Position numbers and translations under genes: made by a program. Shown here piece by piece: positions 10,764 through 31,739 of a DNA stretch of 64,000 nt. The stretch comes from DHVE2 group archaeon. Lineage in GTDB: Archaea; Thermoplasmatota; Thermoplasmata; Thermoplasmatales; Aciduliprofundaceae. How positions within the stretch are numbered: the stretch's first letter is position 1; each line of letters opens with the position of its first letter. The stretch spans positions 83,907-147,906 of the forward strand of contig JALVVV010000055.1 of the NCBI GenBank assembly GCA_027023265.1, in the 5' to 3' direction. The notes under the pieces are model-generated. The model ran no database searches. It saw nothing but the letters and a program-made list of their open reading frames with translations, and was not told the origin of the DNA.

Positions 10764-13700
10764 GTGAGCACTATGCGAGGGTATAAAATGAATGAAATAA
10801 ACTGGGAGAAGTTGCGGATTCCCCTGCTGCTAACACTCTTGGTGGCATTTGCTTTCTTCCTGAGAGTGTACTGGGCAGTGGGACCATCTATTGAGTACGG
10901 CTACGCAGTGTCTGGAGGTTCTGATTCGTATTATCACGAGAGAATAATAAATTATATACTCTCCACAGGCCACCAGCTACTTAATGACCCTATGCTCAAC
11001 TATCCTATTGGGATGGATAACCCCAGACCGCCCCTGTTCCACTGGGGAATAGTTATGCTAAGTTTTATTTTCAGGCCGTTTATGAGCGCCTGGGATGCTG
11101 CGGTTCTCAGCTTAATTATATTCCCTGCGATATGGGGTTCCCTGATTCTCATTCCAATATACTTGCTCGGGCGGGAAGCTTACAACAAGAAAGTGGGTAT
11201 TTTAGCGGCGTTTTTCTTTGCCATAATGCCCGGTGCAATTGGTAGAAGCGTGGCTACGCAGGCTGACTGGGATGCCTTTGACCTGTTTTTCATAGCGTGG
11301 ACGTTTTATTTCTTCCTTAAAGCGCTCAAACTTGTCAGGTACAAATACTGGATAAGGGACTGGTTTGACAAGACGCAGGTAAAAGCAGGTCTGAAAGAGT
11401 TTTTCGGTGAAAACAAAGATGCGGTTATTTATTCGGCTCTTTCTGGTGCGGCAATGGGCTCACTGGCTCTTGCATGGAAGGGTTATACTTATGCTCTTAC
11501 AATTTTGGCCATATATCTTTTCGTGCAGGTGTTCATAAACAGGTTCAGAAACAAGTCAAACTTGCACATGGTAGTATTCACAGGTATGTTTATTCTGTTT
11601 AGCTTTGGTATGTCTTTCCCGTGGTATTACATCACAAATAGAATCTCTGAATGGTACGCAATTCCTTTGGTTGTTATTGCAGGTGTGTTTGTAATTGCTC
11701 TGTTTCTTGAAGTTACCGGTAAGTATCCCTGGCCATTCGTATTTTCCGTGGCTGCGGGAATCATTGCTGCGGGTTTGCTGATTATAAATATCTTCCTTCC
11801 GGATATGTGGCAGTTGCTCGTTAGTGGACAGGGGTATTTCGTTAAGAGCAAACTGTACAGTACTATTGCGGAGGCGCAACCTGCGTCGCTGGGATACCTC
11901 GCAATGTCATTCGGGGTGGCCATATTCATACTTGCATTTGGAGGTATTGTCCTACTGCTTCTAAAAATGCGCAAGGATAGAAACGAGTATTACCTGTTCT
12001 TTGTGTTCTACTCAATAATCGCCATATACATGGCTCTTTCTGCTGCGAGGTTCATATTCAATGCAACGGTGCCTTTTGCGCTTATGGGGGCCATAGCAGT
12101 CATATGGCTTGTCGAGGTTCTCAGATTCAGAGAGTCCATGGAAGAATACAGGAAGTACAGTGGAAGTGCCTGGAAGAAGTTAAAATCTACAGTTAAGTTC
12201 TCTCAGATAGCCTTTGTGCTGGTTATTGCGTTTTTGCTTGTTGTTCCCACGGTGTGGAGTGCTGTGGATGCAGGGATACCTTATGAGGATAAAAAGAAGT
12301 TTGACAAGCAGATATATGATATAATGCCATCTTTTATGAGGCCTAATGAAACAACTTATAAAAAATCCTCTCCGTGGTACCTTGGTGCATTTGGCTATTC
12401 TTTACCAAAGCCCGATTATCCATGGGAGCGTGCTTGGAAATGGTTGAGGGAGCAAGATAACAATACTCCTCCTGAATACAGGCCAGGATTTGTTTCGTGG
12501 TGGGATTACGGATTCTCTGCGATACGCCAGGGGCAGCATCCTGCAATTGCCGATAATTTCCAGAATGGTTACCAGATGGCTGCTCAGATAATCACTGCTC
12601 AGAACGAGAGCGAGGTAATATCTTTATTCATAATTCGACTTATGGAAGGTGATTATTACTCGCATAACAAGTCATTTTCTCCGGGAATGCTGGATATCCT
12701 CCATCATTATTTTACAGATGCTGAGGTGAAGCACATCAAGGAGGCATTTAAAGACCCAGAACAGTTCAAGGATACAGTTGTAAATAACCCTGATTATTAT
12801 GGTATTTACGAGAGTGACATATCTGGAAAGAATTTAGAGTATGCATATCTCAAAGGTATGTTTGCTCACAGGCCTGAGAGTAAGCTCATTTCTCTTTACG
12901 ATGCGGTTAGAAATTACACGCATCATGACATCCGTTACTTTGCTGTTGACTATCGTTTGTTTCCGTTCTCCGGTAGGAATACTGGTATATTCTATGCACC
13001 TGCCAAATTGGGTGATAGGCGGGTTCACCAGTATGGGGGCACGGTGGTTCCTTACGATTTCTACGTGCTTAAAGCTGTGGACCAGTACGGAAACGAGTAC
13101 GATTTGAACAAGGTGCCTGCGAAGGTCAGGATTGTGAATTACAAGATTGAGTACAAGCCTATGTTTTACGATAGTATGCTTTATCGAACTTTCATAGGTT
13201 ATTCAGGTAAAGAGGTTGGAGCTGTAGATGGTATTCCGGGAATATCTCCGGGCTTGTATAATTATTACCCCATGCAGGCATGGGATATGGCCCATTTCAA
13301 ACTGGTTTACAGGACAGCATACTGGAATCCGTACAAGGATTATCAGAATCATACAAATGCATGGAAGCCTATCCCAATAGAGCAGGCACTTAAATATGCC
13401 AAGGAGAACAAGGGCGTTGTAGAATTAAATCCTCCGGCATATCAGGTACTACCGAACGATGTGGTAATCGTAAAGTTTTATGAGGGTGCTATAATAGATG
13501 GTACTGTAAAGTTAACTGATGGTGAGCCGCTGAAGCATGTGAGGGTTACTTTGCTGGATGAGTATGGTATTCCTCATGTCTCCGTTTATACCGATTCACA
13601 TGGGCACTTCAGGATTCCAGCTGTTGCGGGAAATTTGACTCTCGTTGTTTCTACAAATGGTGGTTTAAACAAGTTAAAATTGGTTGAAAAGACGATTCTC

Positions 13701-16700
13701 TACCGGGGTACAATAAATGTCTCAGAGGAACAGGCCATGCGCCTAAAGCCAAATTATGTGATTAAAAAGGATATTGTGCTCAAGCCATCTAACTTGGATG
13801 GTGTTGTTTATTTTGATTTAAACCAAAACAACAAATTTGATAATGGAGATGTTCGCATAAAGAGCGGTGTATTCGTGCTTAGAAACGAGACTTATGGATT
13901 CAATAAAACATGCGAGATTGTAAATGGTCTTTATCACATAAACAACATTCCTCCTCACAGATATACTGCTGATTTGATTCTCAATGGAAGATACTTTGCA
14001 GATGCTGCCAATATATCAATTGGAAGCAATCAAAACCTTACCAAGGATATTGGTATTGTGCCCTCCCGGATTCATGGTGAGGTTACTTATTCTAACGGTG
14101 CTCCAGCGTCAAATGCTACTGTGGTTTTGAAAGGGGTATATGCAAGTTATGAAGTGAAGACCGCCAATAATGGTTCATACAGCGTATATGTGGTACCTGA
14201 TAATTACACTGTTTATGCACATATGGGGAATTATGTATCTCACAAGGATACTGTTATTGTTAATTTGTGGAATTATACTACTTCGGAGAATCTGACATTG
14301 AGGCATGCGTTTATAATAAATGGTTTTGTTGAGTATAACGGAGTTCCTGTTTCTCACATCCCAGTAAAAATTACATCAGAGTTGCTTCCTCACAATATTT
14401 ACATTGTAACTACTGATGATGAAGGTCACTTTAATCTAGAGGTTCCTGGTGGGCTATATAGTATATATTCTACCTCGTATGTTGGCACAACTCGTGTGGC
14501 GTATGTTGGCTTTTTGAATCTGGATAGTAACAAAAACCTGGTGCTGCGCATGTCCAAAGGATATAGCGTGAGCGGATATGTCCATGCTCCTAAGAATGTG
14601 AAAAATATCGAGATTGGAATATATGGTAATGGTGTTTTCTACCGCACATTTGTTAATAATACTGGCTATTACGAGGCGTATTTGCCAGAGGGCAGGTATG
14701 TTGTGGGCGTGCTTGGGTTTGGTGAAAAAAGTGCTCCTTATTTTGCAAGGGAGATTATTCATCTGTCTGCTCCTCTAACTGTGAATATTGAACTTCACCG
14801 GGCATACAATGTTACGGGTGTGGTTTATTTTGACAGGAATGGTAATGGGATAGTAGATGAAAACGAAATAATTCGCAATGGTTTGGTGTGTCTTTATGAT
14901 TCCCATGGTATATATGAGATTAGAAATATCCCGCCTGATGGACGATTTGTTCTGCCAACCAATGTGAACTATCATGTTAAAGTAATTCTCTGGGGATATA
15001 GCGTGAAAAATATCGAATATCATGGAAACAGTGTGCATGTGGTAGTCAACTCATCTTTTATTCACGTTACTGGATATTTAAAAACGCAGGGGCATATTAA
15101 TACTATTCCTGTAAATATTCGCTTTATAGAGCATTATGGGAATTATACTCACGTGTATGAAGTCACAGGGGTGACATCCCATTATTCTACATATTTGCCT
15201 CCAGGTAACTATACTGTGGAGTTTTATGGATATAATCGCACATATCGCCTGAACAATTACAGTTTTGTGGTTCCAAGGGGATTTGCTAATTTCTGGTTCA
15301 ATACCAGTTTTATCGCTTATGCGCATATTACCTTGGTGACACAGGGAACTGGAGCCACGTGGTTCTTGCATGGGCACAATTTCACTTCAGGAAAGACTGT
15401 AACCCTGCCAATTAATACGTATACACTGTATGTTTACAACAGAACATCTTCCAATGTACTTTCAATAAGTGTAGAACATAATGACACAATTGAAGTGCCG
15501 GTATATCCTTCGTACTACGTGGGCTTTGATATTACTAATTATACAGAAAGGGCAGAAGTTCATGTGTATGCGGGTAATGTATCTTTAACAGTCTCCGGTT
15601 CTATTAAGTTGCCCGAGGGTTCTTATGATTTTGTGGTCAATGACACTCGCCGTGAGGGTGAAAGCTACTACAATTACTTTGCGGAAAACAGAAGTTTTGT
15701 AAATAGCGACACTGTTGTAGCTTTGCATGTAACTAAGAGAAAAGTAGTCACTCATCTTGTAGGGTATGTTTTGTCTCCACACGGTGCAATTGCAAACTGC
15801 ATAGTGCATTTGCACTCTCTAAATGGCTTTGGTAATTTCACAGTGGTTACTGATTCTAATGGGAAATACACAGTGGATCTTACTCCCGGTAAATACATGA
15901 TATACACCTCATTCATATTTGGCTCCGAGAAATACGCAAACATAAGTTTCGTGGCGTTATATAGAGGTTCAAGGGAATACGACATACATATGGTTCCTGG
16001 GTATTATATTCGGGGAGGCACGTTTTTAAATGGTGTTCCTGTAAGCACTGTGGTTAACTTTGGCTTTAATGGTAGCGTTATCTCGGTGCAGTCTTCAGGA
16101 TATTATTGGGTTATATTGCCTCCTGGAAATTATTCTGTTAGTTCTGAGAAGAGCAGAGAAGAGTACGGGTTAAATGTGGGGTATTCGTTCAACGGTCATT
16201 TGAATTTGACCACTCATGATGTTGACCTTAACATATATCTGGTAAGAGATAGCTATCATCTGGTGACGGGCAAGGTCATTGCTGTTGATGAGCAGGTATC
16301 TCCCAATTCTACTATGGGTGTTACTGTGCTGTTGAAGAATGGCGGTAATTCTCCGGAGAAAGTTAGACTGGAGGGTGTTGGTGAATGGAGTGTTATTGGA
16401 AACCATGTGTTCAAGATGAATCCGGGAGATACCAAGACAGTTTCTCTGAAGGTGCATGTGCCTTACAATGCAAAATATGGAGCAGATAATTTCAAGATTC
16501 GCATTTTGTTCTCACAGTACTCCAGGGATATTATTGTTCATACAAATGTGTCAGAAGTTTTCAGGGCAGAGCTTTCAGAATCTCTTGATGGGTGGAGTAA
16601 CAATTCTCTCGTGTATACTGTTACCATTCACAATGAGGGTAATACTGCCGTGAATTATACCCTTGGCATTTTAAATGCAGAGGAACTTAACGCAAAGGGC

Positions 16701-17030
16701 TGGAAAGTTCACATGGAGATGGACAAGCATGTGGTTAGGTATGTGAATGTCCCTGCGAACGATTATCGTAAAATCAAAGTTATTGCCGTGGCAACTAAAG
16801 AAGTTCCGTCTACTGTGGTGCCTATTACTCTATCAGCGTTTGGTGGCAGGGAGTACATCATACACTTGGCTCTTTATCATCCCGAGGTATCTCAGAATAG
16901 CCTTTATGTTAAGGGTGAGAATGTACAGAACTATTCTGGAATGACCATTGATAATTATACATATGCAGTGTGGATATCGGCGGCTGTTATTGCGATTGTT
17001 ATCTTGTGGATAGGGAGGTATAGGAAATGA
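10764..17030 (+). CDS. aglB: AglB oligosaccharyltransferase with giant Ig-like C-terminal extension
   Basis: This 2,088-residue protein transfers lipid-linked glycans to Asn in N-x-S/T sequons of surface proteins. Residues 1 to about 500 hold some 13 TM helices with the first acidic motif GGSDSYYH (D54) and a second DWDAFD motif near 170; the catalytic WWDYG lies at 579-583. Ordinary AglB is about 600-1000 residues. Here, from about 910 to 1830, there are roughly ten carboxypeptidase-regulatory/PEGA-like beta domains, including two calcium-loop-like DxNxNxxxD segments near 1016 and 1354. NEW3/CARDB-like domains and a final TM anchor follow. The extension is itself rich in sequons. GTG at 10764 lies about 26 nt from a TATA box; ATG at 10788 has a GAGGG SD and is an alternative start. 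Confidence 0.93.
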   Translation: MSTMRGYKMNEINWEKLRIPLLLTLLVAFAFFLRVYWAVGPSIEYGYAVSGGSDSYYHERIINYILSTGHQLLNDPMLNYPIGMDNPRPPLFHWGIVMLSFIFRPFMSAWDAAVLSLIIFPAIWGSLILIPIYLLGREAYNKKVGILAAFFFAIMPGAIGRSVATQADWDAFDLFFIAWTFYFFLKALKLVRYKYWIRDWFDKTQVKAGLKEFFGENKDAVIYSALSGAAMGSLALAWKGYTYALTILAIYLFVQVFINRFRNKSNLHMVVFTGMFILFSFGMSFPWYYITNRISEWYAIPLVVIAGVFVIALFLEVTGKYPWPFVFSVAAGIIAAGLLIINIFLPDMWQLLVSGQGYFVKSKLYSTIAEAQPASLGYLAMSFGVAIFILAFGGIVLLLLKMRKDRNEYYLFFVFYSIIAIYMALSAARFIFNATVPFALMGAIAVIWLVEVLRFRESMEEYRKYSGSAWKKLKSTVKFSQIAFVLVIAFLLVVPTVWSAVDAGIPYEDKKKFDKQIYDIMPSFMRPNETTYKKSSPWYLGAFGYSLPKPDYPWERAWKWLREQDNNTPPEYRPGFVSWWDYGFSAIRQGQHPAIADNFQNGYQMAAQIITAQNESEVISLFIIRLMEGDYYSHNKSFSPGMLDILHHYFTDAEVKHIKEAFKDPEQFKDTVVNNPDYYGIYESDISGKNLEYAYLKGMFAHRPESKLISLYDAVRNYTHHDIRYFAVDYRLFPFSGRNTGIFYAPAKLGDRRVHQYGGTVVPYDFYVLKAVDQYGNEYDLNKVPAKVRIVNYKIEYKPMFYDSMLYRTFIGYSGKEVGAVDGIPGISPGLYNYYPMQAWDMAHFKLVYRTAYWNPYKDYQNHTNAWKPIPIEQALKYAKENKGVVELNPPAYQVLPNDVVIVKFYEGAIIDGTVKLTDGEPLKHVRVTLLDEYGIPHVSVYTDSHGHFRIPAVAGNLTLVVSTNGGLNKLKLVEKTILYRGTINVSEEQAMRLKPNYVIKKDIVLKPSNLDGVVYFDLNQNNKFDNGDVRIKSGVFVLRNETYGFNKTCEIVNGLYHINNIPPHRYTADLILNGRYFADAANISIGSNQNLTKDIGIVPSRIHGEVTYSNGAPASNATVVLKGVYASYEVKTANNGSYSVYVVPDNYTVYAHMGNYVSHKDTVIVNLWNYTTSENLTLRHAFIINGFVEYNGVPVSHIPVKITSELLPHNIYIVTTDDEGHFNLEVPGGLYSIYSTSYVGTTRVAYVGFLNLDSNKNLVLRMSKGYSVSGYVHAPKNVKNIEIGIYGNGVFYRTFVNNTGYYEAYLPEGRYVVGVLGFGEKSAPYFAREIIHLSAPLTVNIELHRAYNVTGVVYFDRNGNGIVDENEIIRNGLVCLYDSHGIYEIRNIPPDGRFVLPTNVNYHVKVILWGYSVKNIEYHGNSVHVVVNSSFIHVTGYLKTQGHINTIPVNIRFIEHYGNYTHVYEVTGVTSHYSTYLPPGNYTVEFYGYNRTYRLNNYSFVVPRGFANFWFNTSFIAYAHITLVTQGTGATWFLHGHNFTSGKTVTLPINTYTLYVYNRTSSNVLSISVEHNDTIEVPVYPSYYVGFDITNYTERAEVHVYAGNVSLTVSGSIKLPEGSYDFVVNDTRREGESYYNYFAENRSFVNSDTVVALHVTKRKVVTHLVGYVLSPHGAIANCIVHLHSLNGFGNFTVVTDSNGKYTVDLTPGKYMIYTSFIFGSEKYANISFVALYRGSREYDIHMVPGYYIRGGTFLNGVPVSTVVNFGFNGSVISVQSSGYYWVILPPGNYSVSSEKSREEYGLNVGYSFNGHLNLTTHDVDLNIYLVRDSYHLVTGKVIAVDEQVSPNSTMGVTVLLKNGGNSPEKVRLEGVGEWSVIGNHVFKMNPGDTKTVSLKVHVPYNAKYGADNFKIRILFSQYSRDIIVHTNVSEVFRAELSESLDGWSNNSLVYTVTIHNEGNTAVNYTLGILNAEELNAKGWKVHMEMDKHVVRYVNVPANDYRKIKVIAVATKEVPSTVVPITLSAFGGREYIIHLALYHPEVSQNSLYVKGENVQNYSGMTIDNYTYAVWISAAVIAIVILWIGRYRK

Positions 17031-17810: not shown

Positions 17811-18335
17811 TTAAATATGCATCTCTGTGAAATATTCTTTGATTTTTTTTATGTGCTCATCTTTTTTGTCAAGAGGAAGTGCGAGATAGCCGGTTAGCTG
17901 GTGATAACTTTTAAACACGTTGATTTGTTTTGCGTCAATGAATCCCAATCCACTGTAAAATTCTTTTGCTTTCTTTGTCAGGGGTTTGGTTATCACGTAT
18001 TCAGGGGTTAGATATATACCCAACAAAAACATTTTGTATCCTATTTTTTCTCCTCGTAGTGATTCACTCGTTTCCTGGGCTCTTAACACATTTGCAACTA
18101 ATGGTAATTCTTCCCAGTGGTCAATATATACAAATGCTATAACTGTTCTATCCTTGACTCCGATTATGAGTAGAGGTCTTGGGAACTTTCTAAGCCACAT
18201 TTTGAATGTTTCTAAATAATCAACTATTCCATATAAATGAAAGAAAGAGAGCTTGCTAACATCAAAAGAATCCAATTCTGCAGCCTCATCTATTAGATAA
18301 TATTTGTAGTTGCTGTCTGAACAAAGTAAAATCAA
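17811..18335 (-). CDS. GNAT-like acetyltransferase-fold protein
   Basis: The 174-residue protein shows an overall GNAT layout: PLLIIGVKDRTVIAFVYID as central strands, YKMFLLGIYLTPEYV before the acetyl-CoA region, and KKAKEFYSGLGFIDA, the classic C-terminal 'xxFYxxxGF' helix-strand of GNATs. The pyrophosphate-binding Q/RxxGxG/A motif is not clear, so activity is uncertain. The frame stays open to GTG 18374 inside the upstream gene, but TTG 18335 has GGGGGA correctly spaced upstream. It follows a hairpin with a T run (18331-18362), so it may be expressed separately from the signalling operon. Confidence 0.6.
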   Translation of the reverse strand: MILLCSDSNYKYYLIDEAAELDSFDVSKLSFFHLYGIVDYLETFKMWLRKFPRPLLIIGVKDRTVIAFVYIDHWEELPLVANVLRAQETSESLRGEKIGYKMFLLGIYLTPEYVITKPLTKKAKEFYSGLGFIDAKQINVFKSYHQLTGYLALPLDKKDEHIKKIKEYFTEMHI

Positions 18336-18362
18336 AAAAATCCCCCACTTTACTGCGTGGGG
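18331..18362 (-). terminator. Hairpin plus T-run at the end of the signalling operon
   Basis: On the minus strand CCCCAC, an 8-nt loop and GTGGGG form a perfect 6-bp G+C-rich stem followed by GA and seven T residues, the layout of an intrinsic terminator. The TAA stop of the upstream gene lies in the loop. Archaeal terminators usually need only a T run, so the hairpin is notable, but its activity is inferred. Confidence 0.5.
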
Positions 18363-18976
18363 TAGACAATCCACACTCCCGCGTTGTTTCTAAGTATCAT
18401 GTTCATCTGCGTCCTTGTGATATTTGCCTTCTCTAATAGTATCGGTAACCATTCTTCCGGCGCGATTTTTTTGGAGCCGTCTGGTGAAACTGTTGCTATA
18501 TGCGCAACATTTACTTTCTTTCCCTCAACGGTAATTTTTTCAGCTGCAGCTTTTCGGTACGTCTGAATTATTATGTCTCCAGTTTCTATTGCCGTGGGCG
18601 TGGTCCTTGAGTTGTAGTATTCAGCAACATCTTTGTGTATTTTTGGAAATTCGCCTATACGCTTGGTGTATTCTTTCCAGCCTCTTAAAAATGGGCTCTC
18701 TACAGTTACCATGCAATATTTTGACACCGCGTTAACTTTTTCAAATGCAGACAGTATGGATTCTCCTTTCACTATTGCTTCCACAAAGCTATCCCAATCT
18801 GTGTATTCCTCTTCCGGCATGCTTCTTGCTAGAGAATACGCCAGACTCATTAAGTAGTTGTTCATTCCTGCGGCTCCCTGCTTATCTGCAATATCCTCTA
18901 AGAACAGATATGTGGCAATATCTACCATTGGATTGTCCAACAGGTCTTCTTTCTCCTCAATTTTTCTCTGTATCAT
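18350..18976 (-). CDS. Unknown protein, second of a paralogous pair in the V4R/KaiC operon
   Basis: The 208-residue protein has an alpha-helical N-terminus (MVDIATYLFLEDIADKQGAAGMNNYLMSLAYSLARSM) and a mixed C-terminal half. Side by side with the preceding gene product it shares the order of features: 'xxMNxxLxxxxxxLAxxM', a 'W.SFxxAxxxG.S' helix, a PRADKQIADEY-like segment (here FPKIHKDVAEYY), 'xKITVEGKKVNVAHIA' and a C-terminal 'ITRTQMNMILRNNAGV'. The helical layout and operon context resemble V4R/heme-NO-binding-type ligand sensors, but the paired cysteines of V4R are absent. No family assigned. Coupled to its neighbour by ATGA. Confidence 0.62.
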   Translation of the reverse strand: MIQRKIEEKEDLLDNPMVDIATYLFLEDIADKQGAAGMNNYLMSLAYSLARSMPEEEYTDWDSFVEAIVKGESILSAFEKVNAVSKYCMVTVESPFLRGWKEYTKRIGEFPKIHKDVAEYYNSRTTPTAIETGDIIIQTYRKAAAEKITVEGKKVNVAHIATVSPDGSKKIAPEEWLPILLEKANITRTQMNMILRNNAGVWIVYPTQ

Positions 18977-19611
18977 TCTTCATTCACCTCCCCCTTCAAG
19001 CGTGCTCCTTTCATTACGAGTGCAAATACACATGCATAATTTCTTAGAAGACTTCTTACATATTCTTTGTTGATCCCTATCTTATTCAGATTTTCCTCGT
19101 CTATCTTTGTATCTCCTGTGAAGCCCCTGTTTGCTAAATGAAGTGCCTCTAAAGGCTGCCCGGCAATTGTTATGTTTTTGGCGACTTCCTCTCTGAACTT
19201 TACATGTATTATGCAGAAATTGCAAACTGCTATATTTCTGTATGTTATGTTGTATTCATCAGCTATTTGCTTATCTGCTCTTGGAAGTTGGCCAACACTG
19301 TATCTGACTCTCAGGATTGTAGGTTCAAAAACGCATTTTTCAAGGGCATATATATATCCAACTACATCACCATCAACGTCGGTAATGGCAAGATCTGTTA
19401 GCGCTGCTACATTACCCTCTATTGAAAACGCGGTTCTTCCCTCGCGCAGAGCTACATTAAACGATGGCCAGCCCATATACGCTTCTTTTCCCATTCTCTT
19501 TGCCAGATTTTCACCAACTCTTATCCAGTACTGTATTGTTCCTTCTACTCCTGCTTTTTCACTCATATCCTGTATGAGTGATACTAATGCTATGTCTAAC
19601 ACATTTTTCAC
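18973..19611 (-). CDS. Unknown protein, first of a paralogous pair in the V4R/KaiC operon
   Basis: The 212-residue protein is the upstream partner of the pair. It has an N-terminal helical part (LVSLIQDMSEKAGVEGTIQYWIRVGENLAKRMG), then GWPSFNVALREGRTAFSIEG and a beta-rich stretch with an isolated CNFC motif in IAVCNFCIIHVKF, followed by ITIAGQPLEALHLANRGFTGD. The CxxC could bind metal or act in redox sensing, but its partner protein lacks it. It starts at an ATG overlapping the coiled-coil gene stop by 4 nt. Function unknown; likely a sensor or adaptor in the same signalling complex. Confidence 0.62.
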   Translation of the reverse strand: MKNVLDIALVSLIQDMSEKAGVEGTIQYWIRVGENLAKRMGKEAYMGWPSFNVALREGRTAFSIEGNVAALTDLAITDVDGDVVGYIYALEKCVFEPTILRVRYSVGQLPRADKQIADEYNITYRNIAVCNFCIIHVKFREEVAKNITIAGQPLEALHLANRGFTGDTKIDEENLNKIGINKEYVRSLLRNYACVFALVMKGARLKGEVNEE

Positions 19612-20888
19612 CTCCTTTTATATTTCCTTCCTTTTCCATATTTTTTCTCTTCCAAAATTTCGTCATTTTTCATCCATTCCAATACCGTGAGAAGTAAATC
19701 TTTTTCGTATCCTGTCATTTTAATTATTTTTGATAAACTTGCGCCGTCTTCACCCACGGCGCTTAGTATTTCTTTTTTAACCTTTGAAACATCATATATT
19801 TTTTCATCTTTTAATATGATATTTCCTTTGCTTACTTCTTCTTCAATGAAATTCTCCACGATTTTTTCTGGATATTGCAAATCATTTTTATCTATCCCCT
19901 CTGGTGGTATATCATTTCTCAGCCTTTCATGAACGTCCTTGTGCAGAAAAAGTATATAGGGGGTTATTGAATCAATAATGCTGTATATTCTCTCAATTTC
20001 ATCTTTTAATGAGGAAATTTCATTGGATAATTTTTCTATCTTTTCAATGTGTTCTCTGCTTTTTTCTTCAATATCCATCTCTATTAATTTTTTTGTTTCA
20101 CTTATATCCTCTCGAAGTGCGTTTTCCATGTACGCCATATTTCCCTGTAAGTTTTTTACACTTCTCTCTATCATCTCAATTCTCAATCTATTCTCAGTTG
20201 TGTTTTCTATTGCGTATTCCTGCCCCTTAGTTCTGAGCAGTGAAGCAAAATTTTTGGGGATGTATCCTGGTAAAAACTCTTTAATGCTGTTTATTATTTC
20301 AATATATGTTAAATGTATTTGTTTCGGAGAGATAAGCTTCTTTTTTATTGCAATTTCTATGTCCCTTGCCTCTATTTTTCCGTTTTTTAACTTGAATAGT
20401 TCCGTGCCGCTTGTTTTAGTTCTCACATTAGTAAGAACATCCTCTATTATTCTCTCAGCATCGTTGGGGCCAACGTATCTTCTTAGGGTAATGATGGCGT
20501 CGTTGAGTGTGTATTGGTACACCAATCTCAATATGCTTGGTGGTATTTTGTTAACATCGATTTCTTCTTCTACACCCATTATTTCCTCTAAATTTTTCAA
20601 CTTTTTTCTAAGTTTTTCGTATTTTAAAAAATATTTATTAAGTGATTCTACAGAATATTTTATGTTTGAACTCTCGTTCTCTAATTTTGTTATGTTTGAC
20701 TTGATCTTTTCTATTTCTCCCCTTATTCCTGCTATCTCGCTGGCATTTAGATTGTACTTTTTATCAATTGCTTCTATCATCTCATCTATTTTTAGCTCGA
20801 GGTCTTTTCTCATCTCGGATAGCATGCTGGTAGTTGCCCTGTTTTTCAACGTTTCCTCTATCTTCTTTAGCTGTTCATCGGTATCCAT
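19608..20888 (-). CDS. Coiled-coil protein with C-terminal winged-helix-like domain
   Basis: The 426-residue protein has long heptad-rich coils at about 1-110 and 225-315, separated by a compact helical region (about 115-225, PPSILRLVYQYTLNDAIITLRRYVGPNDAERI). The last 65 residues (VKKEILSAVGEDGASLSKIIKMTGYEKDLLLTVLEWM, then a basic KKYGKGRKYKRR tail) look like a winged helix-turn-helix. It may link the sensor proteins of this operon to nucleic acid or form a scaffold. It begins 6 nt after the roadblock-like gene and overlaps the next gene by 4 nt. No named family recognised. Confidence 0.68.
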   Translation of the reverse strand: MDTDEQLKKIEETLKNRATTSMLSEMRKDLELKIDEMIEAIDKKYNLNASEIAGIRGEIEKIKSNITKLENESSNIKYSVESLNKYFLKYEKLRKKLKNLEEIMGVEEEIDVNKIPPSILRLVYQYTLNDAIITLRRYVGPNDAERIIEDVLTNVRTKTSGTELFKLKNGKIEARDIEIAIKKKLISPKQIHLTYIEIINSIKEFLPGYIPKNFASLLRTKGQEYAIENTTENRLRIEMIERSVKNLQGNMAYMENALREDISETKKLIEMDIEEKSREHIEKIEKLSNEISSLKDEIERIYSIIDSITPYILFLHKDVHERLRNDIPPEGIDKNDLQYPEKIVENFIEEEVSKGNIILKDEKIYDVSKVKKEILSAVGEDGASLSKIIKMTGYEKDLLLTVLEWMKNDEILEEKKYGKGRKYKRR

Positions 20889-20894
20889 TATTCA

Positions 20895-21680
20895 TCACAC
20901 GAAACTCTTGATGATTCTTTCAACGTCCCTTATCCATTTCTTATAGTACTCATCTGCGAGCATATCTCCTCGAATCTCTTTCACTCTGCTTGCTATTTTA
21001 TCTATAATCATTGGCCACAGGTCGTCGGTCATGTACTGTGGCGCACTGCCTATTTCGTTGAAGGATATTGTCAGTATCTCGTCTACCATACCCAGCCCAA
21101 CGATTCCTTGCAGTTCTTTCTTTAAATATTCCAGAATTTTCTGGTTCTTTCTGTATTGCTTTGTATGTGCGAAGCTCTCCACAAATAGTTGCCTGCTCAA
21201 TTTGTGGAACTCTTTTTGAATGTCTTCTGGGTACCCTTCTATCTCCTTACCGCTCAGGGGTTTGAGCTGGAATATGTGGTTTATTATTATGCTCCATTTG
21301 TGAATGGTTGCCAGCAAGTCGTGAAGCTCTTCGTGTTTAAGTTCTCTGGTTACCATAATAGCCAAAAACGCGGCTTCACCCACTCTTGATATGATAAGGC
21401 TTCCATCCTTGTACGCTTCTACGGAGACGTTCATGCTCTTTCCTTTTAGCTGTGAGCATATTGTATATAGATTTGCTTTGAATGTGTTTAGCAAGTAATA
21501 TTCCTTCATATCCAGTCTCTCTGGTATGATTGAATCGTATATCCTGCCATTTACTCCCAAGAATAGTATGATGTCTATGTTTCCTTCCTCTCTGAGCCTT
21601 GATATTGAGAGGTGAATCAGAGCACGTAGCAGGGTTACATCCCTCGCTTCCAGGGTCTTTTCAAGGTTTTTTTCCTGCAA
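20895..21680 (-). CDS. Roadblock/LC7-like protein of the signalling operon
   Basis: Residues about 20-125 of this 261-residue protein have the alpha-beta pattern of Roadblock/LC7 or longin folds (NIDIILFLGVNGRIYDSIIP, MNVSVEAYKDGSLIISRVGEAAFLAIMV). The remaining 130 residues are helical with charged segments. Roadblock proteins in prokaryotes usually regulate small GTPases or motility complexes; no GTPase is visible here, but a KaiC-like ATPase is encoded just upstream, one base before the start. The start codon is TTG at 21680, with GAGGTGA from the KaiC-like gene end immediately upstream; the next Met would remove much of the domain. Fold assignment is moderate. Confidence 0.62.
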   Translation of the reverse strand: MQEKNLEKTLEARDVTLLRALIHLSISRLREEGNIDIILFLGVNGRIYDSIIPERLDMKEYYLLNTFKANLYTICSQLKGKSMNVSVEAYKDGSLIISRVGEAAFLAIMVTRELKHEELHDLLATIHKWSIIINHIFQLKPLSGKEIEGYPEDIQKEFHKLSRQLFVESFAHTKQYRKNQKILEYLKKELQGIVGLGMVDEILTISFNEIGSAPQYMTDDLWPMIIDKIASRVKEIRGDMLADEYYKKWIRDVERIIKSFV

Positions 21681-21681
21681 T

Positions 21682-22560
21682 TCACCTCACCTTTAAACCG
21701 TACGTATCAAATATTATTTCAATGATCTCTTCAGGCGAATACGGGTAGTTCCACCACTTCTTTATGTTTTCCAGCTTCATTATCACGTTTGGCGGAGCTT
21801 TTAGCATCTTAGCAGTTTCTATTGCATCGTTGAACACCTTGGAGTAGTCTTTTTTCTCACTTTCTTTCACTTCAAGCGGGGTGCTTCTAACGACTATTCC
21901 AGCTCCACGGGCAAATATGAATGGATACACACCCTCTCCGTGTTTTGTCCCTCTCATTTTCAGAATTTGCAGTGTTCTGTTGAATGCACCCCCGACGGGA
22001 TAATAATCCAAGTGTATGACACCGTCGGATAGATATACAGGAGTAAGCACATCTTCCCCGATAGTTTCTCCTGGTTTTGTATGCTCCTCCACAGTGGAGA
22101 CCACAACTCCTAATTTTTTAACAGTGTAAAACAGTTTTCCGATTAGCTCTCTTTGTTGAAGTTTATCGTCTGTAGCCCAGATTACAGGAGTTATTGGATC
22201 TACTACAATTCTCGTTTTTATCAGGTAATCGCTTCTTGCTTTTACCAGGGCGGGCAATTGTTCTTCAATCATTTTCTTAAAATTCTCTCCTTTAAGGTGG
22301 ATGAAGAAAAGACTCTCTTCGTAGTATTTTTCCATATCAAAACCCATTAATGCCGCTTCTTCCATAATTTGCTTTGGCTCTTCTTCGAGGGATATGTACA
22401 GTCCCTGCTCACCATTCTCTATTCCATACATTATGAATTGTATGGCGAAGGTCGTTTTTCCCGTACCGCTTGAACCAACTATCACGTTAGCGGTTTTGTC
22501 TCTAAATCCTCCTTCTATTAATCGGTCTAAACCGTATATCCCAGATGGGAACCTATTCAT
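21682..22560 (-). CDS. KaiC/RadA-superfamily ATPase
   Basis: The 292-residue protein has one RecA-fold ATPase domain of the KaiC/GvpD type: the FPSGIYGLDRLIEGGF entry, Walker A GSSGTGKT (29-36), the EEEP region (59-62) carrying the probable catalytic glutamate, and Walker B ending at D121 (RIVVDPITPVIW). The single domain and length match archaeal KaiC-like signal-transduction ATPases rather than the double-domain cyanobacterial KaiC. The C-terminal 90 residues are helical. Its ATG lies within the last codons of the V4R gene (8-nt overlap). Such ATPases often sit beside sensor modules, as here. Confidence 0.85.
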   Translation of the reverse strand: MNRFPSGIYGLDRLIEGGFRDKTANVIVGSSGTGKTTFAIQFIMYGIENGEQGLYISLEEEPKQIMEEAALMGFDMEKYYEESLFFIHLKGENFKKMIEEQLPALVKARSDYLIKTRIVVDPITPVIWATDDKLQQRELIGKLFYTVKKLGVVVSTVEEHTKPGETIGEDVLTPVYLSDGVIHLDYYPVGGAFNRTLQILKMRGTKHGEGVYPFIFARGAGIVVRSTPLEVKESEKKDYSKVFNDAIETAKMLKAPPNVIMKLENIKKWWNYPYSPEEIIEIIFDTYGLKVR

Positions 22561-23389
22561 TATTTTTCACCTCCTTTTTCATAAATTTTGCTACGAGTTC
22601 TGCAAAACTCTTACTTTTTTCTGTTTCTTCTACTATATTTACCAGATTGCTATCATCTACTTCTTCCACTTCTTGATCTATGGAATGTGAAAATGCCTCC
22701 GCAAAAGATTTTGCAGATGCAGTAACTTCTGAAACTTCCGAAAGCTTTTTCCATGGCCTCTCCACGTTTTCTTCTGCCGAAATCACGCCAATCTCCAAGT
22801 ATTTCTCGCCCAGTATAGTTATTTTACTGTCTTTTACCAATCCGTATCTTTCGAGAGTCATTGCACCCGCTGGATTTTCCTTTATTGCTTCTTCGCTCCC
22901 TTTTTCAATTTCTTTTAATATGCCAACCTCTTCGTTAGTAATCACATATTTCAGCACATCTATCGGATTCATTTTTATTTCAAACTCGCAGTGGTCGCTT
23001 CCCTCATTCACGCATTTTGTCTCATTTACTTCTGAGGAGATTTCCATATCCTTCTCTAAAAACATCTTGATGGCATCAGCAGTTATGTAGCATGTTTTAC
23101 CGTGAGCATCTGAAAACAGAGATGGAATGCGCGAGGAATACACTCCGAATTTCATGCTGTATCTGTCTATGTCTTCGCATCTCAGGTCTCCGAGACCTAT
23201 GTCCTTGAATGCATCCCTTATATATTGGAAAAGTGGAGTTCTCTCACACTGTATTTTGTTCGTGCTTTTTAGCATGACCTTTATTTCTTTGACGGGTACC
23301 TTTGATTTGGCAATTATTGCACTTATTGCAGCCTCCATCTTTGTTAGCTCACCGAACACGTATATTATCTTAGCTATGCTCTTACCCAT
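22553..23389 (-). CDS. V4R-domain sensor protein
   Basis: The 278-residue protein has a V4R (4-vinyl reductase-like) ligand-binding domain at about 1-145, ending in the diagnostic TKCVNEGSDHCEFEI with C126 and C134. V4R domains bind small hydrophobic molecules or metal ions and regulate partners such as AAA+ or KaiC-type ATPases. After it come a helical linker, a winged-helix-like segment (about 155-210, LERYGLVKDSKITILGEKYLEIG) and an acidic tail of 50 residues (EEVDDSNLVNIVEETEKS). The gene overlaps the upstream PH-like gene by 16 nt and the KaiC-like gene by 8 nt, so strict co-expression is likely. Confidence 0.8.
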   Translation of the reverse strand: MGKSIAKIIYVFGELTKMEAAISAIIAKSKVPVKEIKVMLKSTNKIQCERTPLFQYIRDAFKDIGLGDLRCEDIDRYSMKFGVYSSRIPSLFSDAHGKTCYITADAIKMFLEKDMEISSEVNETKCVNEGSDHCEFEIKMNPIDVLKYVITNEEVGILKEIEKGSEEAIKENPAGAMTLERYGLVKDSKITILGEKYLEIGVISAEENVERPWKKLSEVSEVTASAKSFAEAFSHSIDQEVEEVDDSNLVNIVEETEKSKSFAELVAKFMKKEVKNNE

Positions 23390-23661
23390 GATTCTCCCTC
23401 TATGTAGTGATAAAGAGCTTTTAACATATATATATTACTCGATTTTAGATTCAAATATACTCTTGAATGTAGTTTCATTGCTATGCTGTTATTTGAAACA
23501 TGTATTATCTCTTTTATATCTTCTTTCTTTATGGAGAACCATCGTTTGTTTGACTTTATAAAAATAGAATCATTGCCAACCCATAATGTTCCATTTCCTC
23601 TTGCATTCCATCTGTTGTATCTGACCAAATACGTTATCTTTGCTGTTTTAAATGCATACAT
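23374..23661 (-). CDS. Small PH-like-fold protein, first gene of the signalling operon
   Basis: The 95-residue basic protein has a predicted all-beta body plus C-terminal helix: GNGTLWVGNDSIFIKS, RWFSIKKEDIKEIIHV, NSIAMKLHSRVYLNLKS and MLKALYHYI. This pattern resembles the PH-like N-terminal domain of the archaeal taxis adaptor CheF or GRAM-like domains; the similarity is by pattern only. It has a TATA-like box at 23683-23695, about 26 nt upstream of the ATG, so the operon mRNA is probably leaderless. Confidence 0.6.
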   Translation of the reverse strand: MYAFKTAKITYLVRYNRWNARGNGTLWVGNDSIFIKSNKRWFSIKKEDIKEIIHVSNNSIAMKLHSRVYLNLKSSNIYMLKALYHYIEGESWVRA

Positions 23662-23682: not shown

Positions 23683-23695
23683 CCTATATAAACAT
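23683..23695 (-). promoter_or_regulatory. TATA-like promoter of the V4R/KaiC operon
   Basis: The minus strand reads ATGTTTATATAGG, with TTTATATA centred about 27 nt upstream of the first start codon at 23661. That spacing is the archaeal TATA-to-transcript-start distance and implies a leaderless mRNA. Confidence 0.6.
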
Positions 23696-23721: not shown

Positions 23722-23786
23722 TATGGTGTAATTTGTAATTGTAGAGGCCAGCATTTTTAGTTTTTTGTATGGTGTATTTTGTAATT
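23722..23786. repeat. Two near-identical 19-bp direct repeats upstream of the signalling operon
   Basis: TATGGTGTAATTTGTAATT at 23722-23740 and TATGGTGTATTTTGTAATT at 23768-23786 differ at a single base and are 46 bp apart start to start, about four and a half DNA turns. They lie about 30 and 75 bp upstream of the TATA box of the operon starting at 23661; the second copy reaches the stop codon of the winged-helix gene. Position suggests activator binding sites. Confidence 0.7.
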
Positions 23787-24213
23787 AAACTCGTATCTCT
23801 ATGGTTTCAATCTCTCCCAGAGCCACTTTTTCCTTACCGTATCTGACAACGTTGAGTATCTGAAATTCCCCCATGGCGTATATGTCATCGTACACGTTTT
23901 TGTAATCTCTTCTTGTTTTTCTTGCAATTTCTTTTATTGAAGCAGGTCCGTTTTTATTTAGGAACTCTATAATTTCAAACCTCTTTGCTGAGAGTGATGT
24001 AAATACTTTCTTGTCTTCCACTATTACCGTTTCCTCTATGCCATTGTCCATGGCCATGTAAAACATATAGGCTTCACCTATCTCCGGTTGAGAGCATTTT
24101 TTTATTTGCAAGAGTTTCTTTACTTTTTCTATTCTGCCGAATTTTCTACGGATGGACTTTTTTAGAATTTCCATGTCAGCTTTTCTGTACTTTCTGATAA
24201 TTTTCATCTCCAT
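23785..24213 (-). CDS. Winged-helix DNA-binding protein, TumA/HVO_A0114-like
   Basis: The 142-residue basic protein has a helical N-terminal half and a C-terminal winged helix-turn-helix (about 78-130): LSAKRFEIIEFLNKNGPASIKEIARKTRRDYKNVYDDI, a MarR/HVO_A0114-type pattern, followed by a wing and short beta tail. It lies 15 nt after a TumE-like (DUF6516) gene, the same pairing as in TumE/TumA toxin-antitoxin-like modules, where this protein would be the DNA-binding antitoxin or regulator. The order here is toxin-like gene first. It could also be an ordinary regulator. Confidence 0.65.
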   Translation of the reverse strand: MEMKIIRKYRKADMEILKKSIRRKFGRIEKVKKLLQIKKCSQPEIGEAYMFYMAMDNGIEETVIVEDKKVFTSLSAKRFEIIEFLNKNGPASIKEIARKTRRDYKNVYDDIYAMGEFQILNVVRYGKEKVALGEIETIEIRV

Positions 24214-24228
24214 TTGAACACCTTTGGG

Positions 24229-24525
24229 TTATATGTTATCTATCTCCATAGCGATGATATTTCTCCTGAATGTCTTTATTATGCTTAGAAGATTGTCAAA
24301 ACTCCTTTTTGGAAATTCTTTTGTTCTTACATAGTTCCCATTTTCATCGTAAATATCCATGTGCTCTATTCCATCTAAATTATCCCATCTGACAAGTGTT
24401 ATCCACTTTCTACCCTTTCTTATTTTATATGAATAGAGATAATTTTTCAGTTTATCGTTTTCGTAGAATTCCATTGATACTGCCATTTCACTTTTTGAAA
24501 TGATGTATTTCGTTATTTTCAACAT
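24229..24525 (-). CDS. TumE-like (DUF6516) small protein, putative toxin partner
   Basis: The 98-residue protein has the layout of the DUF6516/TumE family: an N-terminal strand pair, a basic YSYKIRKGRKWITLVRWDNLDGIEHMDIYD core with WDN and H residues, and a C-terminal RSFDNLLSIIKTFRRNI helix. The open frame extends to 24555, but ATG 24525 has GGGGTG upstream and removes the overlap with the deacetylase gene. In other organisms such proteins are encoded with HVO_A0114/TumA-type DNA-binding proteins, as here. Assignment is by motif pattern; toxicity is untested. Confidence 0.58.
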   Translation of the reverse strand: MLKITKYIISKSEMAVSMEFYENDKLKNYLYSYKIRKGRKWITLVRWDNLDGIEHMDIYDENGNYVRTKEFPKRSFDNLLSIIKTFRRNIIAMEIDNI

Positions 24526-24529
24526 CCCA

Positions 24530-25573
24530 TCACCCCATATCAAAATAATCGCCAAATATAAATTTTAATTTTTCCACAATTTCTTCTACTTTTTTTCTAA
24601 CTTTTTCCCCGGAGACTATTCGATCACTTATGCAGTATTTTTCTTCCGGAGTGTTTCCTGTTACCAGGTAGGATACCATTGCCTTGGCAATTTCCCGGTT
24701 TTTCGAGGTGTATCCCCCTTCCTGTATTAGTACAAACATCTTTTTATACTTTTGAATTTTTTTTAATATGTTCACGTATCCCTTTACTGACAAATCCAGG
24801 CCGATGTTTTTATCGGACCTATGCGCGTCGAAGCCGTTTTCTCCTATGATGAAATCCGGATTGTACTCTTTTATCACGGGATCGATTATTTCATTGAATA
24901 TTATCTCGTACTCTGGGTCACCTGCTCCTTTTGGAAGTGGAATGTTTATTGTGTATCCTGTGCCCTCTCCTCTTCCTATCTGGTGTATGAATCCTTCATG
25001 AGGATAAAAGTCCCTGGGGTCTCTGTGAATTGAGATTAAAAGTACATTTTTTGAGGGATAGAAAATCTTCATTGTGCCGTTGGCCGCATGTGCGTCCCAG
25101 TCGATTATGGCTACTCTCCTTAATCCCCTTTCCATCACGTGCATTGCTGTTATGGCCGCGTTGTTTAGCAGGCAGTATCCCCCGTACATATCGGAGCTTG
25201 CATGGTGTCCCGGGGGCCTTACAAGGGCATACGAGTAATCGTAATCTGCATTTACAACGTAATCTGCGGCTTCTATGCTCGCTTCTGCAGCTATTAAGGC
25301 AGCCATATATGAGTAGTTGTTGAGGTAGGTGCTATCTCCTAAATAAGTGGGCCCACGCATAGACATTCTTTCGAGAAATTCCAGGTACTGGGGTGTATGA
25401 ACTGTTAGGATATCATCTATGTTCGCCGGTTCTCTAACGTCTTGAAATGCTATTTTTCCAGACATTGTGTTTTTCAGATATTTATATACATCACTGATCC
25501 TTTCTGGTGATTCCGGGCTTCCCTTCATATTGTGGTAAACGTGTGTTGGATTGTACACGACCACCATGCTCAT
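24530..25573 (-). CDS. Histone deacetylase-superfamily amidohydrolase (AcuC/HDAC-like)
   Basis: The 347-residue protein shows all HDAC landmarks: the SPERI entry loop, GPTYLGDSTY, RPPGHHA with the charge-relay His pair, the zinc ligands in VAIIDWDAHAANG, and the C-terminal glycine-rich QEGGY. In prokaryotes such enzymes deacetylate proteins or small acetylated amines. The ATG at 25573 overlaps the preceding stop (ATGA) and has GGTGGGA as SD, so it is chosen over the longer frame from 25603. It belongs to an operon running from the RuvC-like gene to the TumA-like gene. The real substrate is not evident. Confidence 0.88.
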   Translation of the reverse strand: MSMVVVYNPTHVYHNMKGSPESPERISDVYKYLKNTMSGKIAFQDVREPANIDDILTVHTPQYLEFLERMSMRGPTYLGDSTYLNNYSYMAALIAAEASIEAADYVVNADYDYSYALVRPPGHHASSDMYGGYCLLNNAAITAMHVMERGLRRVAIIDWDAHAANGTMKIFYPSKNVLLISIHRDPRDFYPHEGFIHQIGRGEGTGYTINIPLPKGAGDPEYEIIFNEIIDPVIKEYNPDFIIGENGFDAHRSDKNIGLDLSVKGYVNILKKIQKYKKMFVLIQEGGYTSKNREIAKAMVSYLVTGNTPEEKYCISDRIVSGEKVRKKVEEIVEKLKFIFGDYFDMG

Positions 25574-25899
25574 AGTCCCACCTTTTTTACGTACTCCATC
25601 CACCTTTTTTTATCATCAATTTCGCTGGATGCCCGGTAATCTTTCAGAAACATGACGCATCTTCTTAATATAAGCGCTTTTTCCACCAGGCACTCTGGCA
25701 CGTCGTTCATTTCTCTTATTTTTTTTCTAATTTCTTCGTACAGAGCAGAGTACTTTGCAAGCATCTTCTCCTTATTTCCCTGTGTGATATCTTCTTTAAT
25801 GTGGTATTTCACATCCTCAATTTCTATTTCTTCGGGAATTTCAACGGTTACAACATTTGACAAATCGTCAATTTTTTTAAGTGCTTCTTCTTTTTTCAT
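25570..25899 (-). CDS. Unknown small helical protein
   Basis: The 109-residue charged protein is predicted mostly helical after a short strand (NVVTVEIPEEIEIEDVKYHI). It has two cysteines (C76 region in VPECLVEKALILRRCVMF) not arranged as a metal site. It overlaps both neighbours by 4 nt (RuvC-like upstream, deacetylase downstream), so it is certainly expressed with them. I do not recognise a family. Confidence 0.62.
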   Translation of the reverse strand: MKKEEALKKIDDLSNVVTVEIPEEIEIEDVKYHIKEDITQGNKEKMLAKYSALYEEIRKKIREMNDVPECLVEKALILRRCVMFLKDYRASSEIDDKKRWMEYVKKVGL

Positions 25900-30569: not shown

Positions 30570-31739
30570 GTGAAAAGACAGAGCCTGTATTTTGCTATAC
30601 TTTTGCTCCCGCTGCTTGGAGGAGTTGCTTCTAAGCTACTTAGGGTTATAATTGCATTCTCACTAAGGTCAGTTGGTGTCTCTGTATTTGATATCACTTT
30701 GCTTTCCTCCTCGTTTATGCTGTCCCGCGCTTTGTTTTCCCCTATCATGGGTAGGTGGGCAGACAGGGGATTTAAAAGGCATCTCATAATTGCAATGGGC
30801 TTTGCTGGGTTGCTTATCGATTCGCAGCTTTATTTCCATGTGTCTTATTATGGTATACTTACCTTGAGGGTTTTGGACGGTATCTTCAGCGCCATGGTTT
30901 GGCCTACCATGCAGGCAATAGTCCATTTTTCTTCTCCGAGTAAATTAAAAGCTAGAATTATGAGTATGTATTTTATAATGGGGTCTGTTGGCATGTCTCT
31001 TGGTTATGTTATTTATTCTTACCTGGTGGGTGATATTTTTTACGGATTGATTTTAATAGCTATGGTTTATTCTGTGGAGATATCTATGGTGTATTTTGTA
31101 AAAGATGTTGATAACCCTTTTTCTGACACGGGTAAGAAATCACACAGGAGTACGGTAAAGAAAAGAAATATTAATGTTCCTTTGTTAGGTATGACTTTTA
31201 TGTTTGGTATGTATCTTTCACTTGGGAACGAGGTGCTGCTTTTTTATCTTGCGGAAAATATGGGATTTGGGAAAGTAGATGCCACAAGATTGTTATTTTT
31301 TGGAGTGATAGTGGCCATGTTGGGAAGCATACTTTTCGGGCATATAGCAGATAAAAAGGGATTTTTAAAATCTCTGTTATTTCTCGGAATTATCACTCCT
31401 GTATCTGCTCTTTTAATATCTTTTAATTCTGTTTACCTTGTTGTAGCAGGTGTTTTCCTGTTTTTTATTTCTGGTAGAGGATTCACTCCCATTTCAAGAA
31501 GTTTTACAGCCAGTTTTGGAAAAGACGTGGGCACTTCTTTGGGATTTGTAAACCTTGCCTCTAATTTTGGGTCAATGACCGGGCCACTGTTGGGTGGATA
31601 CCTTATGGATTTTTTTGGAGCTAAAAAGTTTTATTTTTTGAACATGGCTGCCATTGCCTATTTGATAATAGGAACGGGAGTTGCGCTAAGTGTTATGGTA
31701 TTTTCCCGTTCCCAAGCTCATGTAATCTCTCAGACATAA
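30570..31739 (+). CDS. Major facilitator superfamily transporter
   Basis: The 389-residue protein has about 12 hydrophobic helices and the MFS loop 2-3 motif in GRWADRGFKRHL, with a weaker repeat in the second half (FGHIADKKGFLKSL). A central basic loop (TGKKSHRSTVKKRN) separates the two six-helix halves. Substrate cannot be predicted; drug-efflux or metabolite permeases share this plan. The start is GTG at 30570. Its last 47 bases overlap the convergent phosphopantothenate synthesis gene. Confidence 0.82.
   Translation: MKRQSLYFAILLLPLLGGVASKLLRVIIAFSLRSVGVSVFDITLLSSSFMLSRALFSPIMGRWADRGFKRHLIIAMGFAGLLIDSQLYFHVSYYGILTLRVLDGIFSAMVWPTMQAIVHFSSPSKLKARIMSMYFIMGSVGMSLGYVIYSYLVGDIFYGLILIAMVYSVEISMVYFVKDVDNPFSDTGKKSHRSTVKKRNINVPLLGMTFMFGMYLSLGNEVLLFYLAENMGFGKVDATRLLFFGVIVAMLGSILFGHIADKKGFLKSLLFLGIITPVSALLISFNSVYLVVAGVFLFFISGRGFTPISRSFTASFGKDVGTSLGFVNLASNFGSMTGPLLGGYLMDFFGAKKFYFLNMAAIAYLIIGTGVALSVMVFSRSQAHVISQT

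Follow-up and report, generated by a model that had tools for sequence, protein, structure and literature searches.

Closest described systems

KaiC-like ATPases of archaea were reportedly described as signalling hubs by Makarova, Galperin and Koonin in 2017 (cited in PMC5847659). The operon analysed here lies on the minus strand of a 64,000-nucleotide stretch of contig JALVVV010000055.1 (the window), from a DHVE2 group archaeon of the Thermoplasmatota, and resembles these hubs in that a KaiC-family ATPase is accompanied by sensor, adaptor and helix-turn-helix (HTH) partners. In order of transcription, it encodes a PH-like protein (g1), a V4R protein with a winged helix (g2), the KaiC ATPase (g3), a roadblock protein (g4), a coiled-coil protein (g5), two paralogues, A (g6) and B (g7), and a GNAT protein (g8). 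KaiC hubs are recognized by a KaiC ATPase whose association with sensor and HTH proteins is conserved, a feature that is present here. The operon differs from the hubs in its fixed set of at least eight genes, its A/B pair of predicted V4R/Bet3 fold, its roadblock and GNAT proteins and its HDAC-family deacetylase, a comparison made with the hubs as a class. These genes very probably constitute one functional, co-inherited unit, and the chances are about even that this unit is a KaiC-centred sensory or regulatory hub with a V4R/Bet3 sensor core. No description of the cluster was found in the open literature, an earlier mention in the 2017 paper being possible; the cluster is placed among the proposed KaiC hubs as a variant and has a fair chance of being new in kind.

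The ATPase g3 (21682–22560; 292 amino acids), called KaiC-like in an earlier reading of this DNA (the original prediction), is a single-domain KaiC-family protein with a conserved C-terminal extension. It matches PF06745 at 161.7 bits (cut-off 26.6 bits, E = 2e-47), and the Walker A, catalytic EE and KMRGT motifs are conserved in 21 orthologs. Identity with the circadian KaiC, which has two KaiC domains, was rejected, since only one domain is present and the scores lie far below the cut-offs (132 bits for a cut-off of 408, and 83 bits for one of 546). GvpD, a KaiC-like regulator of gas vesicle genes, is another KaiC-type P-loop protein that acts in gene regulation; g3, however, scores only 16.4 bits as GvpD, and no gas vesicle genes were noticed in the operon loci.

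The remaining parts of the operon recall other systems. A paralogous pair of predicted Bet3 fold with a roadblock-type partner is reminiscent of the TRAPP core and of Asgard TRAPPC3 and roadblock proteins (PMC2253512, PMC10933270). In contrast to TRAPP, the operon has a KaiC ATPase, no longin pair and no GTPase, and its A/B pair shares neither the sequence family nor the glycine-pair motif; g4 is a roadblock protein by fold, and no second longin-like gene is found in the conserved cluster. The V4R sensors PoxR, MopR, DmpR and MsvR resemble g2, with its V4R domain, three conserved cysteines and winged helix, and g6 in its predicted fold. The V4R-type folds of the operon are instead proposed to be subunits of a larger ATPase-based complex, and neither A nor B is matched by the V4R profile of Pfam. 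MglB shares the fold of the N-terminal domain of g4, but g4 adds a helical domain and the operon lacks an MglA-type GTPase partner. AcuA/AcuC and other GNAT–HDAC pairs similarly tie an acetyltransferase and an HDAC-family deacetylase to one cluster, but the partner in the operon is a putative KaiC complex, and no acetyl-CoA synthetase was noticed nearby.

Conservation and inheritance of the operon

The original prediction described seven tightly joined genes between positions 18350 and 23661. All seven are open reading frames on the minus strand at the coordinates given there; four of their junctions overlap (by 16, 8, 4 and 4 nt) and two leave gaps (of 1 and 6 nt). The span is too short, however, as g8 (17811–18344) follows directly in the operon. 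The domain calls on the parts listed have held, whereas the acetyltransferase, the HDAC partner and a conserved operator had been missed. The conserved block also extends upstream of g1, where the operator, a winged-helix/DUF7718 gene pair and the HDAC gene are located. A hairpin followed by a T run on the minus strand, CCCCACGCAGTAAAGTGGGG (18343–18362), overlaps the stop codon of g7; g8 starts at a TTG after this hairpin, or possibly at an alternative GTG at 18374.

A search of GTDB species genomes with a profile of A/B yielded 47 loci, all titled Thermoplasmatota, Euryarchaeota or archaeal metagenome-assembled genomes except for one contig binned as a cyanobacterium. The same gene order is seen in more than 40 loci from uncultured Thermoplasmatota: the series g2-g3-g4-g5-g6-g7-g8 recurs wherever the flank suffices, with the exception of one split cluster, and g8 comes next in all loci of sufficient length apart from L070, which has a lone g7-like match. 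Because this order is conserved in dozens of genomes, the operon arrangement is not a matter of chance. An unconserved neighbourhood, or housekeeping functions, had been named at the outset as grounds for giving up the original prediction, and neither ground has been borne out, the neighbourhood being conserved. The contig binned to the Leptolyngbyaceae (L053:1–10966) carries the end of g5 followed by g6, g7 and g8; it is probably chimeric, because near 2.7 kb its GC content rises sharply from 0.42 to about 0.50 and its gene content shifts to bacterial-looking genes.

The split cluster belongs to a genome related at the phylum level only (G114) and retains all of g1 to g8, divided over two loci. 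The first contains an extra PH-like gene, g1, g2, g3, g4 and g5, and the second g6, g7, g8 and an HDAC fusion. The extra gene (L101:11920–12477), upstream of g1, encodes a 186-residue protein of no Pfam family. The same genome encodes members of a related KaiC subfamily (L102:4970–6852 and L103:631–2309), which score about 240 bits with the g3 profile and lie beside double winged-helix regulators; KaiCs similar to these are also found in operon-free genomes.

Inheritance was compared across 390 sampled genomes from the phylum and proved to be all or none: A/B, the KaiC ortholog (cut-off >500 bits, the next best KaiC scoring about 240 bits) and the roadblock gene are present in the identical 13 genomes, about 3% of the sample, and in none elsewhere. 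These 13 genomes represent eight families and are phylogenetically non-independent. A/B, the KaiC ortholog and the roadblock gene are all missing from complete genomes that belong to the same family and order. A viral or mobile origin was rejected, as no relatives were found in IMG/VR.

The same genomes bear on the idea that the operon encodes a chemotaxis or archaellum switch module. In kind, g1, g3 and g5 do resemble CheF, ArlH and ArlCDE, respectively (PMC9126983), but archaellin is absent from seven of the 13 operon-bearing genomes and CheF is present in only one of them. No g1 member matches CheF (PF04283), and genome searches for CheF gave matches only in G005:C14 and G013, neither at the operon. 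In addition, g3 reaches 55 bits where 215 bits are required of an ArlH, and its identity as ArlH was rejected on that basis. A role of this type is largely refuted and retains a negligible probability.

Constraint and predicted fold of the A/B core

A (g6; 18973–19611, 212 residues) and B (g7; 18350–18976, 208 residues) are paralogues, as originally predicted (BLASTP 2e-18, hhalign probability 100). Described there as unknown, the two are now predicted from AlphaFold and Foldseek to have a V4R/Bet3-like fold, and they belong to no Pfam family. Across 31 loci, the mean pairwise identity is 81% for g6, 72% for KaiC and 67% for g7, compared with 31–48% for g5, g2, g8 and g4. In the same genome pairs, g6 is 73–83% identical and ribosomal protein uS12 72–79%. 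Four-fold degenerate sites agree in only about 30% of cases even between proteins that are 95% identical; this saturation of synonymous sites indicates that the high identity reflects purifying selection, and recent horizontal transfer was ruled out as its cause. Of all g6 positions, 52% do not vary across 26 deep loci; among charged positions the invariant share is 41% in g6, compared with 4–11% in g4 and g8. By this pattern of sequence identity, A, B and KaiC form a constrained core under extreme purifying selection, and the other parts are looser and variable. Constraint on a par with uS12 is unusual outside the core information machinery and, combined with presence in so few genomes, implies a demanding, specific function.

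AlphaFold models were made for g6 and g4, and the fold of g7 is assigned by homology to g6. The g6 model (predicted local distance difference test score 90, predicted template modelling score 0.87) has TRAPPC3 (6aq3) as its best Foldseek match in the PDB, with an E value of 6e-4 and a probability of 0.99. Its matches to rank 31 comprise TRAPPC3/Bet3, CesD/BcsD and the V4R sensors PoxR, MopR and DmpR, which constitute one fold superfamily (PMC2253512, PMC10933270). On this model, a V4R/Bet3-like fold is predicted for A and, through its homology, for B. At the sequence level, neither the V4R nor the TRAPP profile of Pfam matches any of the 46 members of g6 or the 34 of g7, and hhalign gives no profile link between A/B and g2; a sequence link of A/B to V4R was therefore rejected. 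Glycine pairs spaced by three residues, a motif of the Bet3/V4R superfamily (PMC2253512), are not seen in the aligned g6 and g7 sequences.

The strongest rival to a regulatory hub builds on these two results. In this rival, A and B would co-assemble as a polymer, coat or shell similar to BcsD filaments, with KaiC remodelling the assembly, g5 spacing it, and GNAT and HDAC controlling it. Its strength lies in the ribosomal-protein-like constraint, with over half of g6 invariant, and in the presence of BcsD and the BcsH–BcsD "beads-on-a-string" filament among the fold matches of g6; a g5 coiled coil that is variable in length around a fixed globular middle would also suit a spacer. Such an assembly is nevertheless judged unlikely, as the V4R regulator, the number of winged helices and the one conserved operator suggest regulation.

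The partners g4 and g5 are less constrained. In the AlphaFold model of g4 (20895–21680; 261 residues, predicted local distance difference test score 85), a roadblock fold spans residues 14–137 and is followed by a helical C-terminal domain. No Pfam roadblock profile matches g4; the roadblock-like call of the original prediction is upheld by Foldseek, in which MglB (6izw, E = 1.2e-5, TM-score by target 0.69) and an Asgard roadblock protein (9jue, E = 1.3e-5) are matched at E values of the order of 1e-5. The putative scaffold g5 (19608–20888; 426 residues) consists of two coiled coils flanking a conserved globular middle and a C-terminal winged helix, in keeping with its earlier description as a coiled-coil/winged HTH protein; the winged helix is supported by repeats that are visible and by weak matches. 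The g5 proteins of relatives have one or two winged helices and range from 366 to 741 residues. The loci L042, L049, L050, L054 and L055 contain, downstream of g8 and on the opposite strand, a gene for a 511-residue KaiC/GvpD-type ATPase beside a true roadblock (PF03259) gene, one of each having been tested by Pfam. This is a second KaiC–roadblock pair and, over the five loci, an independent and recurrent link of the two families.

The Bet3-like fold of g6, the roadblock fold of g4 and the PH-like g1 could also be those of a TRAPP- or Ragulator-like membrane adaptor acting on a small GTPase encoded elsewhere; TRAPPC3 and roadblock proteins are found in Asgard archaea (PMC10933270). However, no GTPase was recognized among the recurrent neighbours, the rest of the genome not having been searched, the ATPase that is present is a KaiC, and a roadblock protein is found in place of a longin. 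An adaptor of this kind is considered highly improbable.

Putative sensor, operator and acetylation components

The V4R call for g2 (22553–23389; 278 residues) stands: the window protein scores 31.3 bits with PF02830 (cut-off 31 bits), and 27 of 28 orthologs match. Cys100, Cys126 and Cys134 are invariant in the orthologs, and a cluster of three conserved cysteines has been reported for the V4R sensors PoxR and MopR (PMC5847659). Winged-helix matches cover residues 153–210. At the C terminus, short SFAE motifs are repeated and kept in orthologs; these are possible docking peptides. The first gene product, g1 (23374–23661; 95 residues), is weakly conserved, and in most lineages a winged helix is added to the PH-like domain, giving about 175 residues. 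The PH-like call made for it in the original prediction survives in weakened form, with a PH_SLA1 match of 0.0056 and GRAM and POB3-PH matches in relatives.

A TATA box-like sequence, TTTATATA (23685–23692), is located 24–31 nt before the ATG of g1, and similar boxes are found in relatives. A leaderless start of g1 is likely. A scan for sigma-70-type promoters gave no excess, as expected for an archaeon. Further upstream, between g0 and g1, a conserved operator-like element (23723–23786, minus strand) comprises two direct repeats of the form TTAC-N7-ACCATA separated by 16 or 17 nt, CTGG, and 8 or 9 nt, a rigid arrangement of 63 bp. In the window, the repeats at 23769–23786 and 23723–23740 are copies with no mismatch, compared with 0.4 expected at up to three mismatches, and CTGG occupies its fixed position between them (23748–23751). 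The element is found once per locus in 27 aligned loci, including loci with other upstream genes or with upstream genes in the opposite orientation. In a genome-wide pattern search, it was present in 16 of 19 operon-bearing genomes and none of 21 operon-negative genomes, and a reversed control pattern gave one match in the 40 genomes. G346:C32 holds one further operator-like site, which is probably due to chance. The window also contains an isolated near-copy of the half-site at 31086–31103, with two mismatches. The putative operator may be bound by the neighbouring winged-helix protein g0 or by the winged helices of g1, g2 or g5; that it belongs strictly to an adjacent g0 is not borne out, as L038, L049, L050 and L054 keep the operator without g0 beside it.

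Winged helices in g1, g2, g5 and g0, together with a GNAT and an HDAC protein, could alternatively indicate a chromosome-bound complex in which the winged helices bind DNA, the coiled coil and KaiC organize or segregate the chromosome, and the GNAT/HDAC pair modifies a chromatin protein. An operator that occurs about once per genome provides no sign of a genome-wide site of that type. Complete relatives live without the system, and the window proteins, g1 excepted, are not basic. This explanation is doubtful, ranking behind a polymer or coat.

Two genes point to reversible acetylation. Acetyltransf_1 is matched by 26 of 33 g8 orthologs (best 2e-7), the window copy falling below the threshold, and the PDB profile matches of g8 are GNAT proteins with the exception of one entry named only transcriptional regulator. 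On these profile matches, g8 is a member of the GNAT superfamily, with predicted acetyltransferase activity. The associated HDAC-family gene (24530–25603, minus strand) matches PF00850 at 273.6 bits (cut-off 27.9 bits) and its window copy has the catalytic His/Asp motifs GHH, DWDAH and FDAH. It adjoins the cluster in 16 distinct loci, including L067, where g8 is directly followed by a fusion (12056–13783) of an HDAC domain with an unassigned N-terminal region some 240 residues long. An HDAC is present in all 13 operon-bearing genomes but also in 186 of the 390 genomes overall, so that presence alone is weak evidence and a test by clade is needed. In the HDAC tree, all cluster-adjacent sequences (four of which repeat loci already counted) and non-adjacent copies from G281 and G346 form one clade with a bootstrap value of 100. 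None of 20 HDACs from operon-negative genomes, drawn from high-scoring matches and not at random, falls inside. By phylogeny and gene order, the GNAT gene and this dedicated HDAC clade belong to the operon system.

The following mechanism is proposed for a KaiC-centred hub. A and B would pair as a Bet3-like heterodimer and, together with the g2 V4R domain, may sense either a redox state or a small hydrophobic ligand. Coupling of the heterodimer to the KaiC ring would be the task of the roadblock protein g4, and the complex would be docked by the PH-like g1 and by g5, with its coiled coil of variable length. ATP hydrolysis by KaiC could toggle the complex between states, the GNAT and HDAC proteins could set or reset the switch via lysine acetylation, and the winged helices of g1, g2 and g5, or the neighbour g0, may act on DNA, at least at the operator of the system itself. 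The output, left unclear in the original prediction, is thus narrowed by the winged helices of g1 (in most lineages), g2 and g5 and by the reversible-acetylation pair.

Several observations weigh against this interpretation. Signalling proteins are not usually constrained as strongly as uS12, and such constraint would suit a structural assembly equally well. With V4R/Bet3 structures, g6 gives low TM-scores (0.36–0.42 by query length for the best matches), neither Pfam nor hhalign finds a sequence family linking g6 and g7 to V4R/Bet3, and the matches behind a PH-like g1 are weak. The HDAC gene is not adjacent in about half of the loci, and G380 has no member of the clade, as neither of its two HDACs falls inside. 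The ligand, substrate and subunit contacts are inferred. From the original proposal of a new archaeal sensing complex, a conserved and apparently undescribed multi-protein system has emerged, gene order being shared by dozens of genomes, and sensing continues to be an inference. More tentatively, and with well under an even chance, A and B may be a new family at the core of an undescribed machine, a Bet3-fold heteromer that is driven by KaiC and switched by GNAT and HDAC, unlike in kind to the known KaiC hubs, TRAPP or archaella. The system joins folds of eukaryotic trafficking (Bet3-like and roadblock) to a KaiC ATPase and reversible acetylation, and offers a compact testable case for the role of archaeal KaiC ATPases and the prokaryotic workings of Bet3-type pairs.

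Other neighbours of the operon include g0 (23785–24213, minus strand), an HVO_A0114-type winged-helix protein (55.3 vs 27.6 bits), and a DUF7718 protein (24229–24555, minus strand; 29.2 vs 25 bits), both associated with the cluster in 24 loci. The DUF7718 protein is weakly TumE toxin-like, and the two are possibly a toxin–antitoxin-like or regulatory pair. The pair is conserved beside the operon and is divergent in L047, L063–L065 and L069. On the other side of the operon, a gene at 10764–17030, convergent with the operon in several lineages, encodes an STT3/AglB-like protein of 2088 residues whose long tail consists of repeated carboxypeptidase-regulatory-like domains.

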